Counted from the first letter of the stretch, positions 3,047 to 48,442 are shown. The stretch is DNA of 50,158 nucleotides from Methanosarcinales archaeon (GCA_030611045.1 JAUWQN010000003.1:1-50158), one strand, 5' to 3'. Notes: a model not told the origin generated them from the letters alone. Numbers and translations are program-made.

Positions 3047-4096
3047 TTAAAGCTTTGATGTCTTTTCATGAAGTTTGCTAATAACTTTTTGAAAGACGTC
3101 CAGGGCTTTCTCTGCCAAATCTTTATTCGTAAAAATTGGCTCTGATGGAGGGACTTCTTCAAAATTTATTATTGTTTGGTCTCCTTTTGAATGAATTATC
3201 TTGTGTCTCCACTTTATGAACTTCTGCGCTTCAACCAAAATGTCATTTGGGATACCAATTTCCCAGATTTTTAAACCATACCCCTTATTATACGCATCTT
3301 TAAAGGATTCCCAATTTTGAAAGTTTACTGATCTTCTTTCGATAAAAACCTCTAATTCCGTTTTTCCTTGTTTGCTTGTGGTTTCATTTATTTCTCCTTT
3401 GAATTGCTTCCTATATTTCTTGGGAATAAAACGCTCATACAAACCTTCCATATTTACAACCTTACCTTCCTTTTCAAACTCAACAAATCTTGTTCGAGCA
3501 TATACCTCAAAAGCTGTTGTTAGCATGACAATTATCTGTTGAGCTAAAGTCGATTCAAAAAGGAAATCTCCTTTCTTGCAGTTTTCGATCAGTATTCTTA
3601 CTTTCTCCATTTGGAAATCAAAAATCTCTCTTGCCATGGGTTCTAAAACGACTTTTTCGCCAACCTTAACCCTATAAAATCCAACTTGAATGCCTTTATC
3701 TCCTATTTGATAAATTGCTCCATCTTTGCCCACTCGAAACTTAATATTAGGATCTTTAATAGACTTTCCATTTCTAAATTCGCTTCCATAGTCTCCGACG
3801 TAAATGGTATTTTCCTTTTCTGACCATGTGAAAGCAACGAATAACTTTGGAGCATCATGAAAATCTCGAATACTTATTTTTGCGGTTTTCGTTTCGTAAC
3901 TCGGATTACTCTGAATAAACCTAAGATTAAAATCAGAATCTCTTTCTAAAATAAAAACTGTTTGGCCTTTGGCTATTTCAAGTATTCTAATCAACGGTGT
4001 ACCTTCATCAAATAGATTTGATTCACTTACAACAAATTCAACTGTCCCTTCCTGTTCATTTAACTGTTCAACAGGAATCCTAAGTGGGTTATACAT
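3047..4096 (-). CDS. Hypothetical protein with HEPN-like C-terminal region
   Basis: 349 aa ORF; helical C-terminal half with WRHKIIHSKG, matching the R-x4-H signature of HEPN domains. Confidence 0.6.
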   Translation of the reverse strand: MYNPLRIPVEQLNEQEGTVEFVVSESNLFDEGTPLIRILEIAKGQTVFILERDSDFNLRFIQSNPSYETKTAKISIRDFHDAPKLFVAFTWSEKENTIYVGDYGSEFRNGKSIKDPNIKFRVGKDGAIYQIGDKGIQVGFYRVKVGEKVVLEPMAREIFDFQMEKVRILIENCKKGDFLFESTLAQQIIVMLTTAFEVYARTRFVEFEKEGKVVNMEGLYERFIPKKYRKQFKGEINETTSKQGKTELEVFIERRSVNFQNWESFKDAYNKGYGLKIWEIGIPNDILVEAQKFIKWRHKIIHSKGDQTIINFEEVPPSEPIFTNKDLAEKALDVFQKVISKLHEKTSKL

Positions 4097-4479: not shown

Positions 4480-4731
4480 CTATTCACCCGAAGTCGCATA
4501 TATCTCATACGGCATTATCTTCTTATTCGCCTTCTTCTTCCCTTTCAATTTACTTACAAGGCTAGCGGCTTTCTCCTTCTTCTGGCGCTTCTTCAACCGT
4601 TCCATTATGCTTGCCATCTCATTCTCTTTTTCTTCATCGCCGTATTCTATCTCTTCCTCACTTAGCGCTTCCTCTTCCTCTTCTACTCCCTCTTCTATCT
4701 CCATGCTCCCTTCGGAAACCGCCACACTCAC
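4480..4731 (-). CDS. Candidate Pup/UBact-like small protein modifier
   Basis: 83 aa (GTG start; alternative ATG at 4704), Glu-rich N-terminal half, Lys-rich second half, Gly-rich-free body, C-terminus ...MPYEIYATSGE (Ser-Gly-Glu). Last gene of an operon with Dop/PafA homologues and an ARC ATPase. Confidence 0.65.
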   Translation of the reverse strand: MSVAVSEGSMEIEEGVEEEEEALSEEEIEYGDEEKENEMASIMERLKKRQKKEKAASLVSKLKGKKKANKKIMPYEIYATSGE

Positions 4732-4852
4732 GTTAATCTCATCCCCTTTTTACCTTGCAAGCAAATACCGTTACTTAAAAATTATCCTTGTTTCTATTTA
4801 TCATTTTTCATTCATTCATTGATACTGAATAAAACTAACTCTAAATGTTACG

Positions 4853-6442
4853 TTACAGAATCACCTTCTCGGGGTATAATCCTTTCGCGGCTGCTAAAAT
4901 CACCTCTAAGTCTGCACCTTCCATCAGTTCATCACTCATCTCATCCTTATTCAGCATAAACGGCTCGTCCAGTATTATTTTCGCTTTGCCAACCGTCATC
5001 GTTGACCAGCTAATATTTCTTACACGCGAGCGGTATCGTTTCAATAGTTCAACTTTAAAAAATTCTCGCGTCTGCTCGGGTGCATTACTCAATGCATAGT
5101 TCACTCGTTCCGGAAGCGAGGACCAATCCACATCCGGCAATTTGCTCTTTGCGAATGCTAATGAATCCTTTGGATTGAACAGGCAATCACTTATTATACT
5201 TCCTTTTTCGTCATCGAGGTAATACCGCACGCTCTCATCCAGCAATGCATATTGGTTACAGACACTCATGCCTTCAGAGGCAGTTTTTGGCTCGTAATTC
5301 ACAAGCAACGCCAATTTCGTTACCCAGTCAATACCATCCACGTAGTTCTCCAGGCTCCGCGCTTCTAAGTCTTCTATCAGATTATTAAAACAGTTTAGCC
5401 CTATTTCATCCCACTTACCCACTTCTCCACCCTCATTATCCTGCATCTTCTCTATCGCATCTAAATAAAACCGTAAAATGGATACCGCATCTGTTCTCTC
5501 TCCGGTCTTCAATTTTATCGCCCACTCGCAGTCCTGTGTATCCAGTGATAGTTTCTTGAACGCTCTTACCGGGTCTTCTATCTCTGGTGCATCATCTAAA
5601 AAGTCCAACTCAAACGCACGCGTTACCAGCGCTTGTGTGATATCACGCAAGAAAATCGCATATTCAGAACGAAGCGCCTCGTAATGAATATCATGCAGTC
5701 GCCAATACTGATGCGCGGCATGGGGCTGATCTCTCGTGTTCAGGATGCCTCTTCCCGTAGTGGTAGAAAGCGAAGATTTTTGCACAACAAACATCGCTCG
5801 TGGTGAAATAACGAACTTCACTCCCCCTTTACCAACGTTCTCTCCTGAAACAACATCTCCGGATCCGGTGAACAGTATTCTTGTAACGACCCAGGGTATG
5901 AGCGCTTTTTCTACACGACTCCAATCTTTGCACGCTGCCCGGTTTGTGATTATATTCCCATGCGTAGCGTAGGTATTGGTCTTTATCTTTCCCCCTTTAC
6001 CCGTCCGCATACCAGTTTCAGGAGAAGGAGAAGAAGGAGAAGAAGTAAAGAAATTGGCAACATTATTCTTATGGATGACTATTTTCTCCTTTAACGCTAA
6101 ACTCGCCTCTCGCGACCCCACAAAGGCGTAGATCTCTGATGCTTTATCGTATGCCACGGCGTCAAAAGGGTTATTATAAGACGGTGTTGCAATCTCAAGA
6201 TGCCCCATATCGTTATAAATCCGAGAGCCGTTATCACCGTATGAAGACGTTATTTTCGATTCATGCAGCTCTTGCGAGACTTCCGTAATAATGTCCCACG
6301 TCACATCTCTTGAAAATCCGCTCCTTTTTAAACCTTGAATCGCAGCATTAACCAGCAATGAAGGATTTAAGCGTGCTTTCGCACTCACTGGATATTCCTG
6401 CTCAATTCCCCTTATCTTATTCTCTGTCCCTATCCGTGGCAC
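4853..6442 (-). CDS. Dop/PafA family (Pup deamidase/depupylase or Pup ligase) homologue retaining the catalytic Asp
   Basis: GIEQEY; NGSRIYNDMGHLEIATP (cf. Dop NGARLYVDHAHPEYSAP); HKNN; IPWVVTRILFTGSG; GILNTRDQPHAAHQYWRLH (cf. [20 protein letters not shown]); APEQTREFFKVELLKRY. Confidence 0.88.
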   Translation of the reverse strand: MPRIGTENKIRGIEQEYPVSAKARLNPSLLVNAAIQGLKRSGFSRDVTWDIITEVSQELHESKITSSYGDNGSRIYNDMGHLEIATPSYNNPFDAVAYDKASEIYAFVGSREASLALKEKIVIHKNNVANFFTSSPSSPSPETGMRTGKGGKIKTNTYATHGNIITNRAACKDWSRVEKALIPWVVTRILFTGSGDVVSGENVGKGGVKFVISPRAMFVVQKSSLSTTTGRGILNTRDQPHAAHQYWRLHDIHYEALRSEYAIFLRDITQALVTRAFELDFLDDAPEIEDPVRAFKKLSLDTQDCEWAIKLKTGERTDAVSILRFYLDAIEKMQDNEGGEVGKWDEIGLNCFNNLIEDLEARSLENYVDGIDWVTKLALLVNYEPKTASEGMSVCNQYALLDESVRYYLDDEKGSIISDCLFNPKDSLAFAKSKLPDVDWSSLPERVNYALSNAPEQTREFFKVELLKRYRSRVRNISWSTMTVGKAKIILDEPFMLNKDEMSDELMEGADLEVILAAAKGLYPEKVIL

Positions 6443-6455
6443 TTCCTTTCTCCTT

Positions 6456-8192
6456 CTACACTTCCTTGCTTATCTCTGCTATCTTCTTCTTTATTGATTC
6501 CTCATTCCAGCCATCCAGTTCATCGAACCGGAACGTTTTGTTATTAGCATACAACAGGTAATCTAAGTATGGGTTTCTGACGATTCTATCTCTTATTTCC
6601 CTGCTTATCTCATCCTCCCAGCCCCTTATATCATCCTCCTCGGCGAGCAATCGTACGAGAACCTGTCGTGCTCCTTCTCCTCTACTCCGCTCTCGGCAAA
6701 ACACCACTACCGCACTTGGCATTCTCGCGAGTTCCGGATAACGCTCAAACAGCCGTGCATATTCCTCGCTGCTCGGTCTGCTCACATCTATCTTCACATT
6801 TGGCTCCTTGTTTATCGTTATCTTATTCCAGCTTAGTGTCGCATTCTCGAATGCAGACGCAAGTCTAACCCGTAACTCGGCTCGCGAATTCTTCGGTGGA
6901 AAGAGTAACGCTTCTCCTACATCCTCTTCGGTTAGTATTCGTTCCACTCCAATCTTATCCGCAACGCACTCGTATAAGTCGTAATCACAGAGATTGGTGA
7001 AATCAAAAGATGCGGCTATCTTCTTCTCCATCTGATCTTCCATCATATACATGCTCCGGTAATCAAACTTCCCTATTGGGATGTAGTTGTATTCAAAATC
7101 ATTTATCTCGTTCTTTATCGCCCATAACTTCATTACCCATTCTATGCGACGGAAAACGTAAGGATCTTCAAGCAATCCCTGGTCAAACTTGGCGCAAATC
7201 CTCTTAAAAGTATCCAGGGCATATTTATCCCAGTAAGAGACTTTTCGCTCCTCAAACAACTCCTCTATTGCTTCGAGATAGTAACTCGTAAGGTAATCAA
7301 TGGCGGATTCCGTCCTCCCATTCATCAGCTTTATGCGCCAGTCACCTTCCGTATTCGCTGAAATATCTTTAAAAGTATGAAGTGGATTCCAGATCTCTTC
7401 CACATGCGTGATTTTCCCTGACTCTATCGCATCTATTACATACGACGTAATGGCATTGCAGAGCAACCTTGTGACCTCCGAACGAACTCCTTCGCCTGAC
7501 GTAACATGCACACGATATGTATCCCTTGTGCTCAATGGTTCGTCCCGTGTGGATAATATCGGCCACTGCGACGGTGATTCGGTGAAAACCCTTCGAGAAA
7601 CCATCGCTTTGGGCGATATTACGTATTTTATCCCTTCTTTATCCGCCACATAACCTCCAGCGCCAAAGAATATCTTACGAAGCACCAGAAACGGGATGAG
7701 TAAATTCTCTTTGCCTACAAAATTCTTCCGGTCCACTGTATATGACTCGTGCGTGCCCCTGCTGTACCTCTTGTCTATCTCCACGTTTGCTTTCCAGCAC
7801 TGGATATAGGCTAAAGACCTCTTTCTCTTCTTCAATTTCTCTCGGTATCGTTCGTTTGCTTTCTCCACGCCTATCTGCATGTACAGCTCTGCTGCCTTGT
7901 CATATTTAAGCACCTCGAAGGCATCTCTACATTCAGGCGTTGCTATCTCGAGATGCCCGCCCGTGCAGATGTAAATTCGCGATCCATTCCTCAAAAAGCC
8001 ATCGTTCCTTCTACGCAGCTTCGAGCAGATCGCATTCGATTCGTCAAAAAAAGTATAATTCTCGAGTGCGCGAATTACTTCATCCACATGATAAAATCTT
8101 GCATAACGGTACAATCCCGGTGATTCGGAACTTAGGCCCACCCTAAATTCATGCTCGAGCCCTTGCCATTTGTTCAAATCCTCCCTTTCCAT
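6456..8192 (-). CDS. Second Dop/PafA family paralogue with Asp-to-Cys at the catalytic position and a C-terminal extension
   Basis: GLEHEF; NGSRIYICTGGHLEIATPEC (cf. PafA [20 protein letters not shown]); LLIPFLVLRKIFFGAGGYV; PILSTRDEPLSTRDTYRVH; VGEALLFPPKNSRAELRVRLASAF. Confidence 0.85.
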   Translation of the reverse strand: MEREDLNKWQGLEHEFRVGLSSESPGLYRYARFYHVDEVIRALENYTFFDESNAICSKLRRRNDGFLRNGSRIYICTGGHLEIATPECRDAFEVLKYDKAAELYMQIGVEKANERYREKLKKRKRSLAYIQCWKANVEIDKRYSRGTHESYTVDRKNFVGKENLLIPFLVLRKIFFGAGGYVADKEGIKYVISPKAMVSRRVFTESPSQWPILSTRDEPLSTRDTYRVHVTSGEGVRSEVTRLLCNAITSYVIDAIESGKITHVEEIWNPLHTFKDISANTEGDWRIKLMNGRTESAIDYLTSYYLEAIEELFEERKVSYWDKYALDTFKRICAKFDQGLLEDPYVFRRIEWVMKLWAIKNEINDFEYNYIPIGKFDYRSMYMMEDQMEKKIAASFDFTNLCDYDLYECVADKIGVERILTEEDVGEALLFPPKNSRAELRVRLASAFENATLSWNKITINKEPNVKIDVSRPSSEEYARLFERYPELARMPSAVVVFCRERSRGEGARQVLVRLLAEEDDIRGWEDEISREIRDRIVRNPYLDYLLYANNKTFRFDELDGWNEESIKKKIAEISKEV

Positions 8193-8220
8193 TTCTCATG
8201 TCAGAGTTAAGTTAACCAAA

Positions 8221-9852
8221 TTAAAAGTGCATTCCTGTGTCTTCCTCTGGCATCTCTTCATATCCTGATACTAATATCTCCTCTGCTCTTCGCTGCACAA
8301 ACTTATCAAATCCTTCTTTTAAGTGCCCCATATTCACACCTATCTCCTCTATGTGCTTATATCGCTTAAGCAAATCCTCTACCTTCTTTCCCACGTCTAA
8401 TATCTCCGAAAAACCTTCTTTATCCCATACGTTCCTCAGCGCATCGTTGCTGATAGCACCTTTTTTCATCATCAGCATTGTCCGCTCCTCCAACGCCTTA
8501 TCTCTCGCATAACCAAATATCTGCGCGATGAACCGCCCGGTTATTGCATCCTCTCGCTTTATCCGCCCTATTTCTGTCTCAACGTACGTGTCACTATACA
8601 TGTAACGGACAATCTCTTCCACCAGATAGGTCCTCGCCTCTTCTTCTCCCCCTTTCTCCTTTATCAGGTAGCGGTCGAGCGGGATTTTTTTTGCGTAAAT
8701 CCGTGCGATGGAATAAGCAGCTTCTCTCTCTGGCTTCGAGACCTCGATTATCTTGTCAAATCGCGACCTAAATGCGGAATCTATAAGATGCAGCCGGTTT
8801 GTTGCACCGATTACAGTGAGGTGTGGATGCAGGGCGTAAAAACCATCTAAAATATCCAGTAGTTGTCCCGTAACTCTTTCCGGTGCACCGGACGACCCTG
8901 TGTACATACCTCTTTCTTGCGCTAAAGCATCTATCTCATCAAAGAAGATTACACCATAATCGTTCTCTCCCTCCTCTAATTTATCGTTCGCAGCCTTGAA
9001 CACCATCCTTACATTCTTCTCTGACTCGCCAAGCCACATGCTGAACAGCTCTCCGGCACCCACCTTTACAAATTCACAGTTGGGTAATGTAGATGCTAAT
9101 GCTTTTGCGCACATTGTCTTCCCACATCCAGGCGGACCGTACATCAGTATCCGGCGGGAACTTTCGCCATATTTAGAGTAATCCTCAGGATTTACCATCG
9201 GAAGAATAATGCTCTCTATCAAGTCCTGTTTCACTTCCTTCAAGCCACCGATATTATTAAAACTCACTTCAGGGCTCTTTGTGACTTCATAGCGAGAGTA
9301 CTCCTTTGCCGTATAACTTTTCTTTATATCAAGCGTACCGGGAAGGAGTCCTACCTTCATCCCCTCTTTTACCGTTTCCTTTTCTTCATCCCGCAGCCTT
9401 TTATATATCCTACCACGACCTTTTCCAGTGGATACTTCAACTATCCAGCCATCACCATCATCTTCCTTTCTCAGCTCCTCTACCTCTCCAACCTCTAAAT
9501 CAACCATCCGGTCATATATGTTGGTGATTCCTATGGTAAACCCACTGGGGTTATTCCTATCCGGGATGCGTCCTATGAACACGTACTTTCCCTCTTGTAG
9601 CTCCTCTATCTCCTTCTCAGTAAGCGTCCCGTAAGGTAAAGATTTTAATGCCCCGTTTAAATTCACGATGGCACCGTCGTTAAGTTTCTCAACCACGAAT
9701 CCGCAGTCTAATGGTGGTGCCCTTGATTTTGAAACAAGCTTCTCTAAATCCTCTTTATATGCTTCTGTCTCCTCGTATTTCCTTCTTAACCTTCGATAAT
9801 CGCTCTCTAACCGCTCATACTCGTATCTTGGAATATAATCCTCTTGTTCCAT
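8221..9852 (-). CDS. mpa: ARC/Mpa-type proteasomal AAA+ ATPase
   Basis: N-terminal coiled coil, interdomain OB-like region, Walker A GPPGCGKT, Walker B VIFFDEID, and the ARC-like segment after the sensor region (VRYMYSDTYVETEIGRIKREDAITGRFIAQIFGYARDKALEE). Confidence 0.85.
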   Translation of the reverse strand: MEQEDYIPRYEYERLESDYRRLRRKYEETEAYKEDLEKLVSKSRAPPLDCGFVVEKLNDGAIVNLNGALKSLPYGTLTEKEIEELQEGKYVFIGRIPDRNNPSGFTIGITNIYDRMVDLEVGEVEELRKEDDGDGWIVEVSTGKGRGRIYKRLRDEEKETVKEGMKVGLLPGTLDIKKSYTAKEYSRYEVTKSPEVSFNNIGGLKEVKQDLIESIILPMVNPEDYSKYGESSRRILMYGPPGCGKTMCAKALASTLPNCEFVKVGAGELFSMWLGESEKNVRMVFKAANDKLEEGENDYGVIFFDEIDALAQERGMYTGSSGAPERVTGQLLDILDGFYALHPHLTVIGATNRLHLIDSAFRSRFDKIIEVSKPEREAAYSIARIYAKKIPLDRYLIKEKGGEEEARTYLVEEIVRYMYSDTYVETEIGRIKREDAITGRFIAQIFGYARDKALEERTMLMMKKGAISNDALRNVWDKEGFSEILDVGKKVEDLLKRYKHIEEIGVNMGHLKEGFDKFVQRRAEEILVSGYEEMPEEDTGMHF

Positions 9853-24184: not shown

Positions 24185-25018
24185 TCATGCGTATCCGATT
24201 AAATCTTCTCTATCTCCCTCTCTTTCTTGTTCTCCAATCTCTTCGCTTTCTCTCGTTATACTCCCCTCTATGAGTTCCCCCTCTCTTCTCATTCTTTCCT
24301 CCAAATCAGATATATCTACTTTCAATCCCACTATCTCACCTACTTTTTCCAATAATCCCTTCGCAGCATTAAAATCCGGATATTCAGGCTCTGCAGGATT
24401 CTGTGCAGTGTTTGCGAATAAACATATCCCCTTTATCCCTTTCTCTCGCCCTATAGCAGCTACAAGTCCGGAAAAGCCTATAAATCTATCTACATGTGTC
24501 TTTTCAATTCCGTATTTAGTCATCTCTTCCAACAATTTCACATCGGTTGCGCAGCATCTGGCTCCCTCCTCTATTACCTGCGCACCAAGCGAAATCACCT
24601 CTTTTATGTGCAGCTCTACGAACAAATCCGTGAGTTTATCCGCGACCATATAATGGTTAAGCGCATCATAAGCCTGATAACCGCTTATTATCACGATGTC
24701 TCGGCTCTGTGCTTGCGCCTGTTTTTTATTATTCAGTATATAGAGTTTCACGCTTGGAAGTTCCACCACATTGTCTTTCGCTAGTTGTGCACCCACGTGG
24801 CTGGGAGCGCAGAGATAAGAAGGGCCGTAATAAACGCTGGGGAAGCCGTATGAAAAGAGTTCAGCAAATAATTGCGGCTGTGATTTTTCTACAAGTGCAT
24901 CTATGACAAGTTTACCAACAGATCGAAGCCCTGGTGCTCCCACTATTGCTATCGGATCTTTCAGCTTTAGCTTACGCGTATCCCGGTAATTTATCCACGC
25001 TCTTTTTGTTATGCTCAT
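24185..25018 (-). CDS. PAC2 family protein (proteasome assembly chaperone-like)
   Basis: AIVGAPGLRSVGKLVIDALVE, PSVYYGPSYLCAP, GFSGLVAAIGREKGIKGICLFANT. Confidence 0.85.
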   Translation of the reverse strand: MSITKRAWINYRDTRKLKLKDPIAIVGAPGLRSVGKLVIDALVEKSQPQLFAELFSYGFPSVYYGPSYLCAPSHVGAQLAKDNVVELPSVKLYILNNKKQAQAQSRDIVIISGYQAYDALNHYMVADKLTDLFVELHIKEVISLGAQVIEEGARCCATDVKLLEEMTKYGIEKTHVDRFIGFSGLVAAIGREKGIKGICLFANTAQNPAEPEYPDFNAAKGLLEKVGEIVGLKVDISDLEERMRREGELIEGSITRESEEIGEQEREGDREDLIGYA

Positions 25019-26093: not shown

Positions 26094-26209
26094 GCTAGCT
26101 AGCTATACAAACAATCTTTAATTTAATATCGTATCCATTAAAAACTTATGGACGAAGTAGGTGTATGGCGGGGAAAAAAGTTTTATCAGCAAATAGTTGT
26201 TTCTTTTGT

Positions 26210-26235
26210 CAAGCTTTCTTTTCAAAAGAAAGGTT
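26210..26235. repeat. Perfect 9-bp palindrome upstream of thrS
   Basis: CTTTCTTTT-C-AAAAGAAAG at 26214-26232, 22 nt 5' of the probable thrS ATG. Confidence 0.6.
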
Positions 26236-26253
26236 GTGAGGTGTGAAAATTGC

Positions 26254-28167
26254 ATGCAATTGCTGTTCATCCATTCTGATTATATAGAATACGAAGCGAA
26301 GTCGAAAACGAGAGTTGCAGAGGAGATAGATCCTGCAAGGAGGAAAGAGCGGATAGAAGAGGCGCTGGTTGCTTTTATCGCGGTGGAAAGCGAAGATGAG
26401 AAGAATGTACGATACATAGTAAAGAAGGCTGCGGAAGAAGCAAATTCTATTTTTGAGCAGGTTAATGCGGAAAGAATTGTTTTGTATCCGTATGCGCATT
26501 TAAGCTCTGAGCTTGCTTCGCCGGAGACGAGCGTAGAGATATTGCGAGGTCTAGAGGAGGTTTTGCGTTCACGCGGTGTGGAAGTAACGAGAGCACCCTT
26601 TGGCTGGTATAAATCGTTTACATTGAGATGCAAAGGGCATCCGTTATCAGAGCTGTCAAGGAAAATAACGGTTCTCGAAGGTGCGGAAACGAAAGAGGCA
26701 GCGGCAGAAAAGCAATCTAAGGCGTTAGAAGCGGAAGAGAAAGCGGTATCTCATTTCTTCTTTATGGATGAACACGGTAACCTCGTAGGGACGGATGATT
26801 TTGACTTTGAAGAAAAACATGAAAATTTGAAGAAGTTCTTCGTGTATGAAAGTGAGAAGCGGCGAGAAGTGGATAAGATACCGCCGCATGTAGAACTGAT
26901 GAAGCGGTTAGAGATCGCGGATTACGAACCCTCATCGGACCCTGGGAATCTACGTTTTTATCCGAAGGGCAAACTGATAAAGTCACTCTTGGAAGACTAC
27001 GTCAGGGATTCAGTGGCTGCTTACGGCGCTGCTGAGGTGGAGACGCCGATAATGTATAGTGTAGTGCATCCATCGCTGAAGGATTACCTCGAACGATTCC
27101 CCGCACGACAGTATTCAATGTTAGGTAAAGGGGGTAAGCCTGATTTGTTCTTACGGTTTGCAGCGTGCTTCGGGCAGTTCCTCATGAGCAAGGAGATGAG
27201 CATTTCGTATAAAAACTTACCCTTAAAGATTTTCGAGCTCGCGCCGTCTTTCAGAAAGGAGAAAAGAGGTGAACTTGTTGGGCTTCGTCGTTTGAGAAAG
27301 TTCACGATGCCTGATATGCATACGCTATGCAGGGACATGGATGAGGCATTGGTGGAGTTCGAGAAGCAATACGAGTTCTGTATGCGTATTTTAGCGGACA
27401 TCGGATTTTCACCAAAGAACTACGAAGTTGCGCTACGATTCACAAAAGAGTTCTACGATGACGGTGCGAACAAAGAGCTTATAGAGCGTTTGGTGGGAAT
27501 AGCAGGAAAGCCAGTGCTGATCGAGATGTGGGACCAGCGCTTTTTCTATTTCGTGCTCAAGTTCGAGTTCAACTTCGTGGACGCGTTAGGTAAGGCTTCG
27601 GCTTTGTCCACCGTCCAGATAGACGTTGAGAATGCAGATCGGTATGGTATAACCTACACCGATGCAGATGGCGCGCGAAAAAGCCCGATTATACTCCATT
27701 GTTCGCCAAGTGGAGCGATTGAACGATGCATATATGCGTTATTGGAGAAGGCATATCTGGATATGGAGGCGGGGGTTATGCCCATGCTTCCTTTATGGCT
27801 TTCTCCTACCCAGTTGCGATTAATTCCGGTAGCCGAGCGGCATTTGGAGTACCTCGAGGAGATTCTACCAGCACTGAACGGGATAATGCGCGTGGATGTG
27901 GACGATCGCGATGAGACCGTATCGAAGAAGATAAGGGATTCAGGACGTGAATGGATCCCTTACGTTGCTGTAGTAGGAGATAAGGAAGTGGAGAAGCAAA
28001 CGTTGAGTGTTACGATTAGGGCGGAATCGAGCAAGAAGAAGCGGAAGGTAGAGGAAATGAATGTTTCTGCGTTAAAAGAGCGGATTGAGGCAAGTATAAA
28101 AGACAAACCGTTCCGATCATTGCCGCTCTCTTATAAATTGTCAGAGCGGGCGAAGTTCGTGGGATAA
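26254..28167 (+). CDS. thrS: Threonyl-tRNA synthetase, archaeal type
   Basis: N-terminal archaeal editing domain ([15 protein letters not shown]...), class II motifs ([30 protein letters not shown]). Confidence 0.95.
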
Positions 28168-35996: not shown

Positions 35997-36830
35997 CTAA
36001 GCGCTCGGCTTCTCCATTAACTTCGTCTTCTTCAGTATTTCACCCTTTCTGGAGTGTGGCATACGGACTAAGCTGTCAGTATACTTCTCGATCTCCCGTG
36101 CCTCTTTGGCGAGCTTTGATGCCTCTCCGAGAAGCTCATGTGCCGCTGCAACAATGGGTACGTACGCTTCGGGGTCTTTCATCATGAAACAGCCTTTTAC
36201 GTCCAGTTCCGCCACTTTCTCCGACATACTGTAGGCTGCAATGGCTTTCGCTTTCGCGTACGGGTTCGAGAATCCTGCGGCTGCAACGGCTTTCTCTGCA
36301 GTTGCTATTATCTGCGGTAATTTCACCTCGCCACCTGCCCGGATCTCGTTGATCACACGGTCAATCTCATCGGCCACCAGCTTCACCACACCGGTTGCCG
36401 ACAGCACGGACATGACATCAACGTTGAAGATGCTCATCTCGACGGGGTCTAAGAACTCTCGCCGCGCTCCGATCATTGGGTCGCCAGGTATAATAATGTA
36501 GCCAAAGCCACCTTCCTTTAACTTGTCTTTCGCTTTCATCGCCGGTGCGTCCGAGACCACAATGCACGGTATGCCCTTCTCCTTCGCCATCTCGCGCGCC
36601 TTCGTAGGTCCTGGAAGAGCCGCATTCGGACTGAGCACCAATACCAGATCAGGCCCCCAGTCCAGTAAGCAAGCGGCGTCTATTGCAGCTTCCGGCGTCA
36701 TCTTCGCGCCCGTCCCAAATACTCGAACGTCTATGTCCTCTCTGTCAGCTCGCTCGTCCAGCAGCAAATCTGCTATTCGTGATATCCCGATATTCCCTAA
36801 TTTTACAAATCCAATCTTTACTATGTCCAT
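35997..36830 (-). CDS. mtd: F420-dependent methylenetetrahydromethanopterin dehydrogenase
   Basis: MDIVKIGFVKLGNIGISRIADLLLDERADREDIDVRVFGTGAKM...SPNAALPGPTKAREMA. Confidence 0.96.
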   Translation of the reverse strand: MDIVKIGFVKLGNIGISRIADLLLDERADREDIDVRVFGTGAKMTPEAAIDAACLLDWGPDLVLVLSPNAALPGPTKAREMAKEKGIPCIVVSDAPAMKAKDKLKEGGFGYIIIPGDPMIGARREFLDPVEMSIFNVDVMSVLSATGVVKLVADEIDRVINEIRAGGEVKLPQIIATAEKAVAAAGFSNPYAKAKAIAAYSMSEKVAELDVKGCFMMKDPEAYVPIVAAAHELLGEASKLAKEAREIEKYTDSLVRMPHSRKGEILKKTKLMEKPSA

Positions 36831-45920: not shown

Positions 45921-48442
45921 TTGAAGTTAGATATAGTTAGCGTAAACCTTTTCGATGAGATGAGAGACAACATGAACACATTCTCTTTGTTCAACGCGGA
46001 GATTCAGAGGGTATTAGGAGCTACCTTTTCTGTTCCCACAAAACCGCAGGAATTAAGCATCCCACTCATTTTAGAGGGTAAGGACGTGCTGCTTATAGCT
46101 CCTACGGGTTCAGGTAAGACCGAAGCTGCGGTTTTACCTATCCTGCACAGGATACTGGATTTGAAGCAGCAGAAGCAGAAGCGTGCGAAGAAAGGGTTTT
46201 ATGCGCTTTATATAACGCCGTTACGTGCGTTGAACCGTGACATGCTGTTGAGGTTAGAGCGCTGGGGTGAACAACTCGGCATTACCATAGAGGTGCGGCA
46301 TGGAGATACGAGCATGTATGCACGGCGGCGACAGGCTTTAGAGCCGCCTGATGTGCTTTCACCACGCCGGAAACGATACAGGCGATTATCCCGGGATCGC
46401 GGTTGCGTGAGCATTTAAAATCTGTGAGGCACGTGATAATAGACGAAGTGCATGAATTAGCGAATTCTAAACGCGGTGCACAGCTTGCAGTTGCGTTAGA
46501 GCGGATAGTGGAACTCGCAGGTGATTTCCAGCGAATCTGTCTCTCTGCAACGGTTGGCAATCCGGAAGACGTCGCTAAGTATTTTGAGGGTCGTGCCTCG
46601 CACTTTGTTCACGCGACCTCGAACGGTAAAATCATTGCGCTTACGCCGGACGACGTCGCGGAATCAGTAGTGATTGCAAAACGAGCACGGGACGGTAAAA
46701 TAGAGGATATTCGACTGAAAGATGGCTCATTGGACGTCTTAGCGAACCAACTGTGCGGGGTGCTTCTGGATGTTAGGGTGATCTCGGCGGATAAGCTCCG
46801 TGCATTGCTCAAACGTGCATATCCGTTCAGGAATATCTCTTTTGAGGTTTTGATGCACGTGATAGAGCAGTTAGCGGAAGAAGGCCTGGTGAAACGAGAT
46901 GGAGAAAGGATATGGCGTAGCAAAAGCACCCGGAACTATTATTATGAGAATCTCTCGATGATACCGGACGAGCGAAAGGTCGAGGTGTACGATATAGTGA
47001 CAGGTAAGCTGATCTGCATGCTGGATGAGCGTTTTGTGCTGAACTTTGCGGATCCAGGCGCGTTATTCGTGGCAAAGGGCGATACATGGCGAATAGTTGA
47101 CACGGAGCTGGATGAAGAAGGAGGAAGAGAAGGAGGAGTACGGCTCAAAGTAGAGCCGGGAGTGAAACGAGAAGGTGAGATCCCGAATTGGGAAGGCGAG
47201 GAGATACCCGTTCCGTTTGAAATCGCACAGGACGTTGGTCGCTTGAGGGCGAAAATCGCTTCTTTTCTTTCGGCTAACGGTAACATCTCGGATTTGAAAA
47301 ATGAGCTGGAGCAGGATTATGGCGTGAATGCTGATTGTTTTGATACGCTCATCGAATTGATAACAAGGCAACTTGAGAAAGGTTATCCAGTGCCAACGTC
47401 ACAGGAGATAGTTGTGGAAATCGCGGATGGGGGGCGAGAAGTGGTGCTGAACACGTGCTTTGGGCATCTGGTAAACGAGACGTTTGGAAGACTGCTCATA
47501 ACGTTGCTCGGCGCTCGACTCGGCACGGACATCTCTATGGAGATAGACCCGTATCGGATAAAACTGAAATCAAGTAGGAGGATGAAGCAAGAAGCGGTGC
47601 AGCAGACGTTAGACTCAATTGAGCCCGAGTTTGTGCGGGTACTCTTAGAGAAGACCTTGAAGAACTCATTCTTGTTCAAATGGGAATTGTTAAACGTAGC
47701 GAAACGGTTCGGTGCGCTGCGTAAGAATTTTGACCGGAAACAGATTTCCGCTGATACGCTTATAAAACTGTTTTCAGAGACGCCGATTTACGACGAGACG
47801 ATGCATAATATCTTTGCTGATAAGCTGGATGTAGAGCGAACGATAGAAGTAGTGAATAGAATAAAATCGGGCGAGCTCCATGTGTATTTCTCATCACGTG
47901 GGCTGAGCCCTGTTAGTGCTTCTGGCTATTTGGGCTGGCGCGATATCTTAGCAACTGAACGAGACGAGAGTTTGATTATCGAAGCGCTCAGAAACAGGAT
48001 AATGAATGATAGAGTGATCTTATTCTGTGTGAATTGCAAGCGCTGGGAATCGCGCAGGCGCGTAAGAACCGTTATTGAACTTGGTGCGGAATCGCTCATC
48101 TGCCCGGCCTGCAACTCACGGTTAATCGCAGCATTAAAGCCGTGGGAGAAGGACGAGATCAAGCTGGTGAAACAATCCGGCGCTCATCAGACAAATGGAG
48201 AAAAAGAGAAAGAGCGTGTGAAACGAGTGTACCGAAATGCGAATCTTGTCTTGTCACACGGTGTGCTCGCGGTGATTGCGCTTGCGGCACGTGGTGTGGG
48301 CCCTGAAGTGGCATCGCGAATAATGAGACGGTTTAACCCGTCGTTAAACGCAACGGAAACAGAAGAGGAGCATGAGTTCTACCGTTCAATCCTTGAAGAA
48401 GAGCGGAAATATGCGCGGACAAGAAGGTTCTGGGATGATTAA
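45921..48442 (+). pseudogene. Lhr-like ATP-dependent helicase, frameshifted and lacking most of RecA2
   Basis: APTGSGKTEAAVLP; frame change between 'PPDVLS' and 'TTPETIQAIIPGSRLREHL'; DEVHEL; then SATVGNPEDVAKYFEG joins directly to GRASHFVHATSNGKIIALTPDDVAESVVIAKRA. Confidence 0.85.

Follow-up and report, generated by a model that had tools for sequence, protein, structure and literature searches.

A four-gene cassette on an archaeal contig

The window, by which we mean the whole 50,158-nucleotide stretch of DNA analyzed here, belongs, as contig C33, to a 99% complete genome of 1.54 Mb from the archaeal ANME-1/Methanophagales group. An earlier note, made from the sequence alone, had described in it a pupylation-like operon of four minus-strand genes running from position 9852 to 4480, and we found every open reading frame (ORF) where the note had placed it, with the intervening gaps of 28, 13 and 121 nt exactly as given. 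The genes encode an ARC/Mpa-like AAA+ ATPase (8221..9852; 543 aa), a PafA-type enzyme of the Pup_ligase family that we call PafX1 (6456..8192; 578 aa), a Dop-type enzyme of the same family, PafX2 (4853..6442; 529 aa), and a candidate Pup-like modifier of 83 aa with a GTG start (4480..4731). The Dop/PafA motifs quoted in the note are present in the sequence, and the small protein does end in -SGE. Downstream of the modifier gene, an ORF at 3047-4096 has a weak, below-cut-off match to the RiboL-PSP-HEPN domain.

That the host is an archaeon was borne out by genes on the same contig: an archaeal F420-dependent Mtd (35997-36830) and a ThrS with an archaea-specific editing domain (26197-28167) both scored over their cut-offs, and SRP54 is encoded there as well. 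Related loci come from records labelled ANME-1/Methanophagales, Methanosarcinales, Alkanophagales and the like, and in one ANME-1 genome assembled into five contigs, the operon lies on a contig of 1.19 Mb. The host genome encodes 20S alpha and 20S beta subunits, PAN and CDC48, with the 20S genes outside the cassette, elsewhere in the genome. Other features of the operon's contig include a PAC2-family protein (the proteasome assembly chaperone family) at 24185-25018, an Lhr-type helicase apparently split into overlapping ORFs (45921-46418 and 46403-48442), possibly by a frameshift or assembly error, and, near the contig start (48-1860), an IS1634-family transposase ORF that overlaps the end of an IS701-family transposase ORF on the opposite strand.

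PafX1 and PafX2 belong to the Dop/PafA family

The claim that the two large enzymes are Dop/PafA paralogues was upheld by profile searches, in which both matched the Pup_ligase model PF03136 far above its 25-bit cut-off (PafX1, 192.6 bits, E = 1.6e-56; PafX2, 212 bits, E = 2.1e-62). The predicted PafX1 model, which has a poorly predicted insertion near residues 464-549, matched Dop/PafA structures (Foldseek E = 1.6e-26), and the metabolite ligases YbdK (E = 3e-5) and glutamate-cysteine ligase ranked next. Compared with actinobacterial enzymes, the PafX1 profile scored higher against PafA (162 bits) than against Dop (118 bits), and the PafX2 profile higher against Dop (170 bits) than against PafA (128 bits); the NCBIfam models agreed for PafX2 (TIGR03688 Dop, 174.8 bits; PafA, 143.3 bits). 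Both enzymes fell below the equivalog cut-offs, PafX1 reaching 156.6 of 551.3 bits for TIGR03686 (PafA) and PafX2 reaching 174.8 of 492.3 bits for TIGR03688 (Dop). In a maximum-likelihood tree, actinobacterial PafA and Dop formed a group to which neither archaeal clade belonged; the AU test spoke against pairing PafX1 with PafA and PafX2 with Dop (p = 1.3e-5), on the basis of three bacterial sequences and with long branches. The bacterial side of this tree is thin, consisting of Nonomuraea and Tsukamurella references from plasmid records.

Both enzymes keep the Glu pair of GxExE, the His of HESY/THGN and the R-x-H motif, and they part at the NGxRxYxD loop. PafX2 has the catalytic aspartate of this loop (Asp78; codon GAT, 6209..6211, minus strand), which is kept in all sequences. 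PafX1 has a cysteine at the same aligned position (Cys76; codon TGC, 7965..7967, minus strand), as do 44/44 orthologues. Over these 44 sequences the PafX1 loop reads NG[SA]RIY[IV]CTGGHLEIATPEC, where actinobacterial Dop has NGARLYVDHAHPEYS; the family motif RDEPH is likewise changed in PafX1, to RDEPL. Sequence conservation is higher in PafX1 (about 80% identity) than in PafX2 (about 70%). The aspartate that aligns with Cys76 is a conserved active-site residue, proposed to act as a base or as a direct nucleophile (PMC3511204, PMC12288473). PafA has the same conserved aspartate as Dop and is able both to remove and to add Pup (PMC12288473).

Because an invariant cysteine replaces the catalytic aspartate, ligase activity cannot be assumed for PafX1. 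With a gamma-glutamyl phosphate beside it, the cysteine could give rise to a thioester, or it could leave PafX1 catalytically unable. PafX1 would be the weak link of the pathway considered below, and this Cys enzyme may be an altered ligase, a thioester ligase or a pseudoenzyme.

A small protein with a conserved Gly-Glu terminus

The candidate modifier has an acidic, variable N-terminal half, followed by a conserved basic remainder in which the conserved part reads EMASIMERLKKREKKEKAADLVSKLKGKKK-NKKIMPYEIYATSGE and the C-terminus is MPYEIYATSGE; its C-terminal tryptic remnant, last Glu included, is IMPYEIYATSGE. All 47 copies end in [SA]G[EQ] (SGE in 44, AGE in two, SGQ in one), so that the final residue in ANME-1/Alkanophagales copies is Glu in 46 cases and Gln in one. 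Exchange of Glu and Gln at the last residue is a known variation of Pup, in which Gln needs deamidation by Dop (PMC12288473). The last 46 codons evolve under purifying selection (median dN/dS 0.06 over 582 pairs), and this value in the small gene, together with recurrence in independent loci, places the operon beyond chance.

None of nine ANME-type and 12 short modifiers matched the Pfam Pup model (PF05639) in a search that recovered the actinobacterial Pup of Nonomuraea at E = 1.4e-30, and hhalign gave no similarity between modifier and Pup. Since no similarity to Pup is detectable, the role proposed for this small protein, encoded with PF03136 enzymes and ending in Gly-Glu or Gly-Gln, rests on gene context, size, composition and C-terminus; its likeness to Pup lies in these features and does not imply homology.

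The ATPase aligns with ARC/Mpa beyond its AAA+ module

The ATPase is a member of the AAA+ family (PF00004, E = 5.7e-35) and consists of an N-terminal coiled coil (about residues 9-42), a beta-rich region located where ARC has two OB domains, and one AAA+ module. Its assignment to the ARC/Mpa type, made in the note, is supported by the ARC model TIGR03689, which aligned end to end over residues 39-473, whereas PAN models covered residues 137-394 only. A similar difference was seen with hhalign, in which the aligned range was residues 40-421 for Nonomuraea ARC and only 119-393 for the genome's own PAN. The ten best Foldseek matches of the predicted structure, a low-confidence model (pLDDT 60), were all Mpa; the score for TIGR03689 was below the equivalog cut-off (157.9 of 504.75 bits). 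The C-terminal tail, GMH[FY] and rarely ending in L, is conserved. It resembles in sequence the GxYx tail that Mpa carries for 20S docking (PMC6466877), with His at the Tyr position.

The enzymes and the modifier co-occur in ANME-1 and its sister family

PF03136 was found in 52/53 genomes of the host's order and in none of the 340 other Halobacteriota genomes searched. Within the class, 52 of 58 genomes were positive, all of them among the 53 that belong to ANME-1 or to a sister family in which Alkanophagales is included; five genomes of four other families in the class lacked PF03136. A phylum-wide search of 393 genomes left the same 52 as the sole carriers. The modifier profile matched 48 of the 58 class genomes, all 48 of which are PF03136-positive, and none of the six PF03136-negative genomes. 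The chance that all six negatives would fall within the ten modifier-negative genomes is C(10,6)/C(58,6) = 5e-6, a figure that carries no correction for kinship.

Synteny extended the note's description of the operon: the order ATPase, enzyme, enzyme, mostly with the small gene next, recurs in dozens of independent loci. The four-gene order is kept across ANME-1, and the first three genes are also found together in Alkanophagales; the modifier gene of Alkanophagales and of some genera is found by itself elsewhere, with a match that is still unambiguous. Open frames of 1100-1871 aa in the genome search had raised the idea of a natural PafX1-PafX2 fusion, which we rejected after finding separate genes in all loci checked. 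Some ANME-1 genomes encode a further, single-copy PafX1-like paralogue (L083:2039-3523, L084:5918-7423, L085:4095-5672) that has Cys at the catalytic position, has its RDEPH loop deleted and adjoins neither the modifier nor the ATPase gene.

Enzyme pairs with short peptides occur in Thermoproteota

The first search also returned two Bathyarchaeota records with related enzymes. PF03136 was present in 6/257 Bathyarchaeia genomes, and 398 genomes of that phylum yielded eight further carriers, all from a single order (8/23 genomes positive). Where the cassette ends were readable, a PafX1-like gene was followed by a PafX2-like gene and then by a short peptide gene (L054/L078, L079, L081 and L082 in Bathyarchaeia; L105-L112 in the other Thermoproteota order), which in most loci begins where the enzyme gene ends or only a few bases away. 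The peptides are 36-41 aa long in Bathyarchaeia, where the last residue is E or Q, and 31-34 aa in the other order. They share PSFK...KKEH...APPG[EQ], with the PPG[EQ] end in 12/12. In one genome of the other order (G773) the two enzymes are on different contigs, and in one genome from Bathyarchaeia (G626) no peptide gene ending in -PPG[EQ] turned up next to the enzymes, at a locus with assembly gaps. These enzyme pairs have no adjoining ARC gene, and searches of five of these Thermoproteota genomes recovered no full-length ARC, giving matches to the AAA modules of other ATPases or nothing.

The catalytic position of the PafX2-like enzymes is Asp in all three lineages, and that of the PafX1-like enzymes is His in Bathyarchaeia and Asp in the other Thermoproteota order. 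The three lineages branch in the same way in both paralogue clades, so the enzyme pair is older than its spread among these lineages. The ARC-less pairs with peptides of 31-41 aa and the Cys76-for-Asp exchange in PafX1 both go beyond the earlier note.

A putative pupylation-type pathway feeding the 20S proteasome

We consider an archaeal pupylation-type pathway feeding the 20S proteasome to be the best explanation (probability about 0.7) of the enzyme family and fold, the conserved gene order and co-occurrence, the purifying selection, the Glu/Gln terminus and the presence of 20S subunits. Protein tagging itself, the direction in which each enzyme works, and binding of the ATPase to the tag and to 20S are what we infer. 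The small protein (4480-4731) would be the tag. Enzymes of the carboxylate-amine-ligase fold would use ATP to activate its C-terminal Glu at the gamma-carboxylate, or would deamidate a Gln encoded at that position to Glu, and the PafX1/PafX2 pair would attach the tag to lysines of target proteins or take it off again. PafX2, with its catalytic Asp, would be the Dop-type deamidase/depupylase that prepares and removes the modifier, and PafX1 would most likely be the ligase, with Cys76 working in place of Asp. The N-terminal coiled coil of the ATPase would bind the tag, and the GMH[FY] tail would dock the ATPase on 20S, into which tagged proteins would be fed. As PAN and CDC48 are encoded in the same cell, such a route would be an addition and not a replacement.

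Several observations count against this pathway: PafX1 lacks the conserved Asp and carries RDEPL instead of RDEPH, the modifier shows no similarity to Pup, the PafA, Dop and ARC equivalog cut-offs were missed, and in the tree the archaeal PafX1 and PafX2 stand apart from PafA and Dop of Actinobacteria. The note had gone as far as a complete ligase/hydrolase/modifier/unfoldase set. That reading is weak at PafX1, without its catalytic Asp, and at the modifier, without detectable likeness in sequence to Pup. Its wider claim, that a genuine archaeal genome holds a pupylation-like operon, is well supported by the families to which the genes belong, their order, their strict co-occurrence and the E/Q exchange at the modifier's last residue; the opposite of what the note had named as contrary to it was seen, namely Pup_ligase matches, a conserved small -GE protein and an archaeal contig.

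Two more specific readings concern PafX1. It might conjugate the modifier through a Cys76 thioester, the ATP-activated C-terminal gamma-glutamyl group passing to Cys76 and from there to lysine. We regard this route as conceivable and would still bet against it; if true, it would be an E1/E2-like step invented independently on a glutamine-synthetase-type fold. Somewhat less probable to us is that PafX1 has lost its catalytic activity or serves as a regulatory partner, a substrate- or tag-binding subunit, with PafX2 performing both attachment and removal, or processing alone. The drift of the catalytic position, from Asp to Cys in ANME-1/Alkanophagales and to His in Bathyarchaeia, would suit such a partner, as would the additional loss of the RDEPH loop in the single-copy paralogue of some genomes and the ability of PafA alone to remove and add Pup (PMC12288473). 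A dead enzyme would not, however, be expected to be better conserved than PafX2, to retain its nucleotide-site Glu residues, conserved His and R-x-H, or to carry an invariant Cys and no random residue in place of the Asp, and the third lineage, the other Thermoproteota order, has Asp in both enzymes.

Very unlikely, in our judgment, is that no protein is tagged and that the small protein is a LysW-like amino-group carrier, the gamma-carboxylate of its C-terminal Glu being loaded with a small amine during biosynthesis by enzymes that are metabolite ligases. A small acidic protein with a Gly-Glu end, a fold that also includes YbdK and glutamate-cysteine ligase (the next Foldseek matches), and Thermoproteota cassettes with no adjoining ATPase would fit this reading. 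Yet the modifier lacks a Cys motif of the LysW zinc-finger type, the cassette has no biosynthetic genes and in ANME-1/Alkanophagales includes a proteasome-type ATPase, and Dop/PafA structures are much nearer (E = 1.6e-26) than YbdK (3e-5). Bacterial contamination or an assembly chimera, which the otherwise mainly bacterial occurrence of PF03136 might bring to mind, we rejected as scarcely credible for an operon that shares its contig with archaeal housekeeping genes, lies on the 1.19-Mb contig of a five-contig ANME-1 genome, recurs in 52/53 genomes of the order and forms divergent archaeal clades in the enzyme tree.

The pupylation-type pathway suggests that Pup-style proteasome tagging also exists in archaea. 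Reviews place pupylation in Actinobacteria and a few other bacteria, and we found no earlier report of it in archaea or ANME-1 in the open-access literature; a subscription or unpublished report may exist. A version conserved in almost every genome of ANME-1, methane-oxidizing archaea that control methane release from sediments, would set Pup-type tagging beside PAN within one archaeal cell. The sequence of the modifier would prove to be replaceable in a system whose enzymes and Glu/Gln terminus persist, and the Thermoproteota peptides would rank among the smallest protein modifiers known. The invariant Cys of PafX1 makes the disputed role of the Asp, direct nucleophile or base, directly testable.

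Comparison with known systems

LysW-type carriers are small acidic proteins ending in Gly-Glu that are modified on the gamma-carboxylate, an ATP-grasp enzyme loading them during the biosynthesis of amino acids. The archaeal modifier has the same Gly-Glu end, but ATP-grasp and amino-acid biosynthesis genes are absent from its cassette. UBact brings Pup-type logic, with a small -GE/-GQ modifier, to some Gram-negative phyla outside Actinobacteria; compared by description only, it is alike in its modifier and differs in its hosts. SAMP/Urm1 modifiers have a beta-grasp fold, a C-terminal Gly-Gly and E1-type activation, where the cassette instead has a modifier with C-terminal Glu/Gln and carboxylate-amine-ligase enzymes. 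These modifiers are archaeal protein tags linked to proteasomes (PMC4569737, PMC4895103).

The actinobacterial Pup-proteasome system (Pup, PafA, Dop, ARC/Mpa, 20S) differs from the archaeal one in several respects. The archaeal modifier is unrelated in sequence and ends in SGE/AGE or PPGE/PPGQ where Pup has GGE/GGQ, Cys replaces the catalytic Asp in the PafA-type enzyme, and the ATPase tail is GMH[FY] where that of Actinobacteria is GxYx. The archaeal ATPase gene lies within the enzyme cassette, with the 20S genes elsewhere, and the host also has PAN. Alike in both are two PF03136 enzymes, for which profile scores pair PafX1 with PafA and PafX2 with Dop, a small protein with C-terminal Glu/Gln, a coiled-coil ATPase whose N-terminal region is ARC-like, and genome-encoded 20S subunits.
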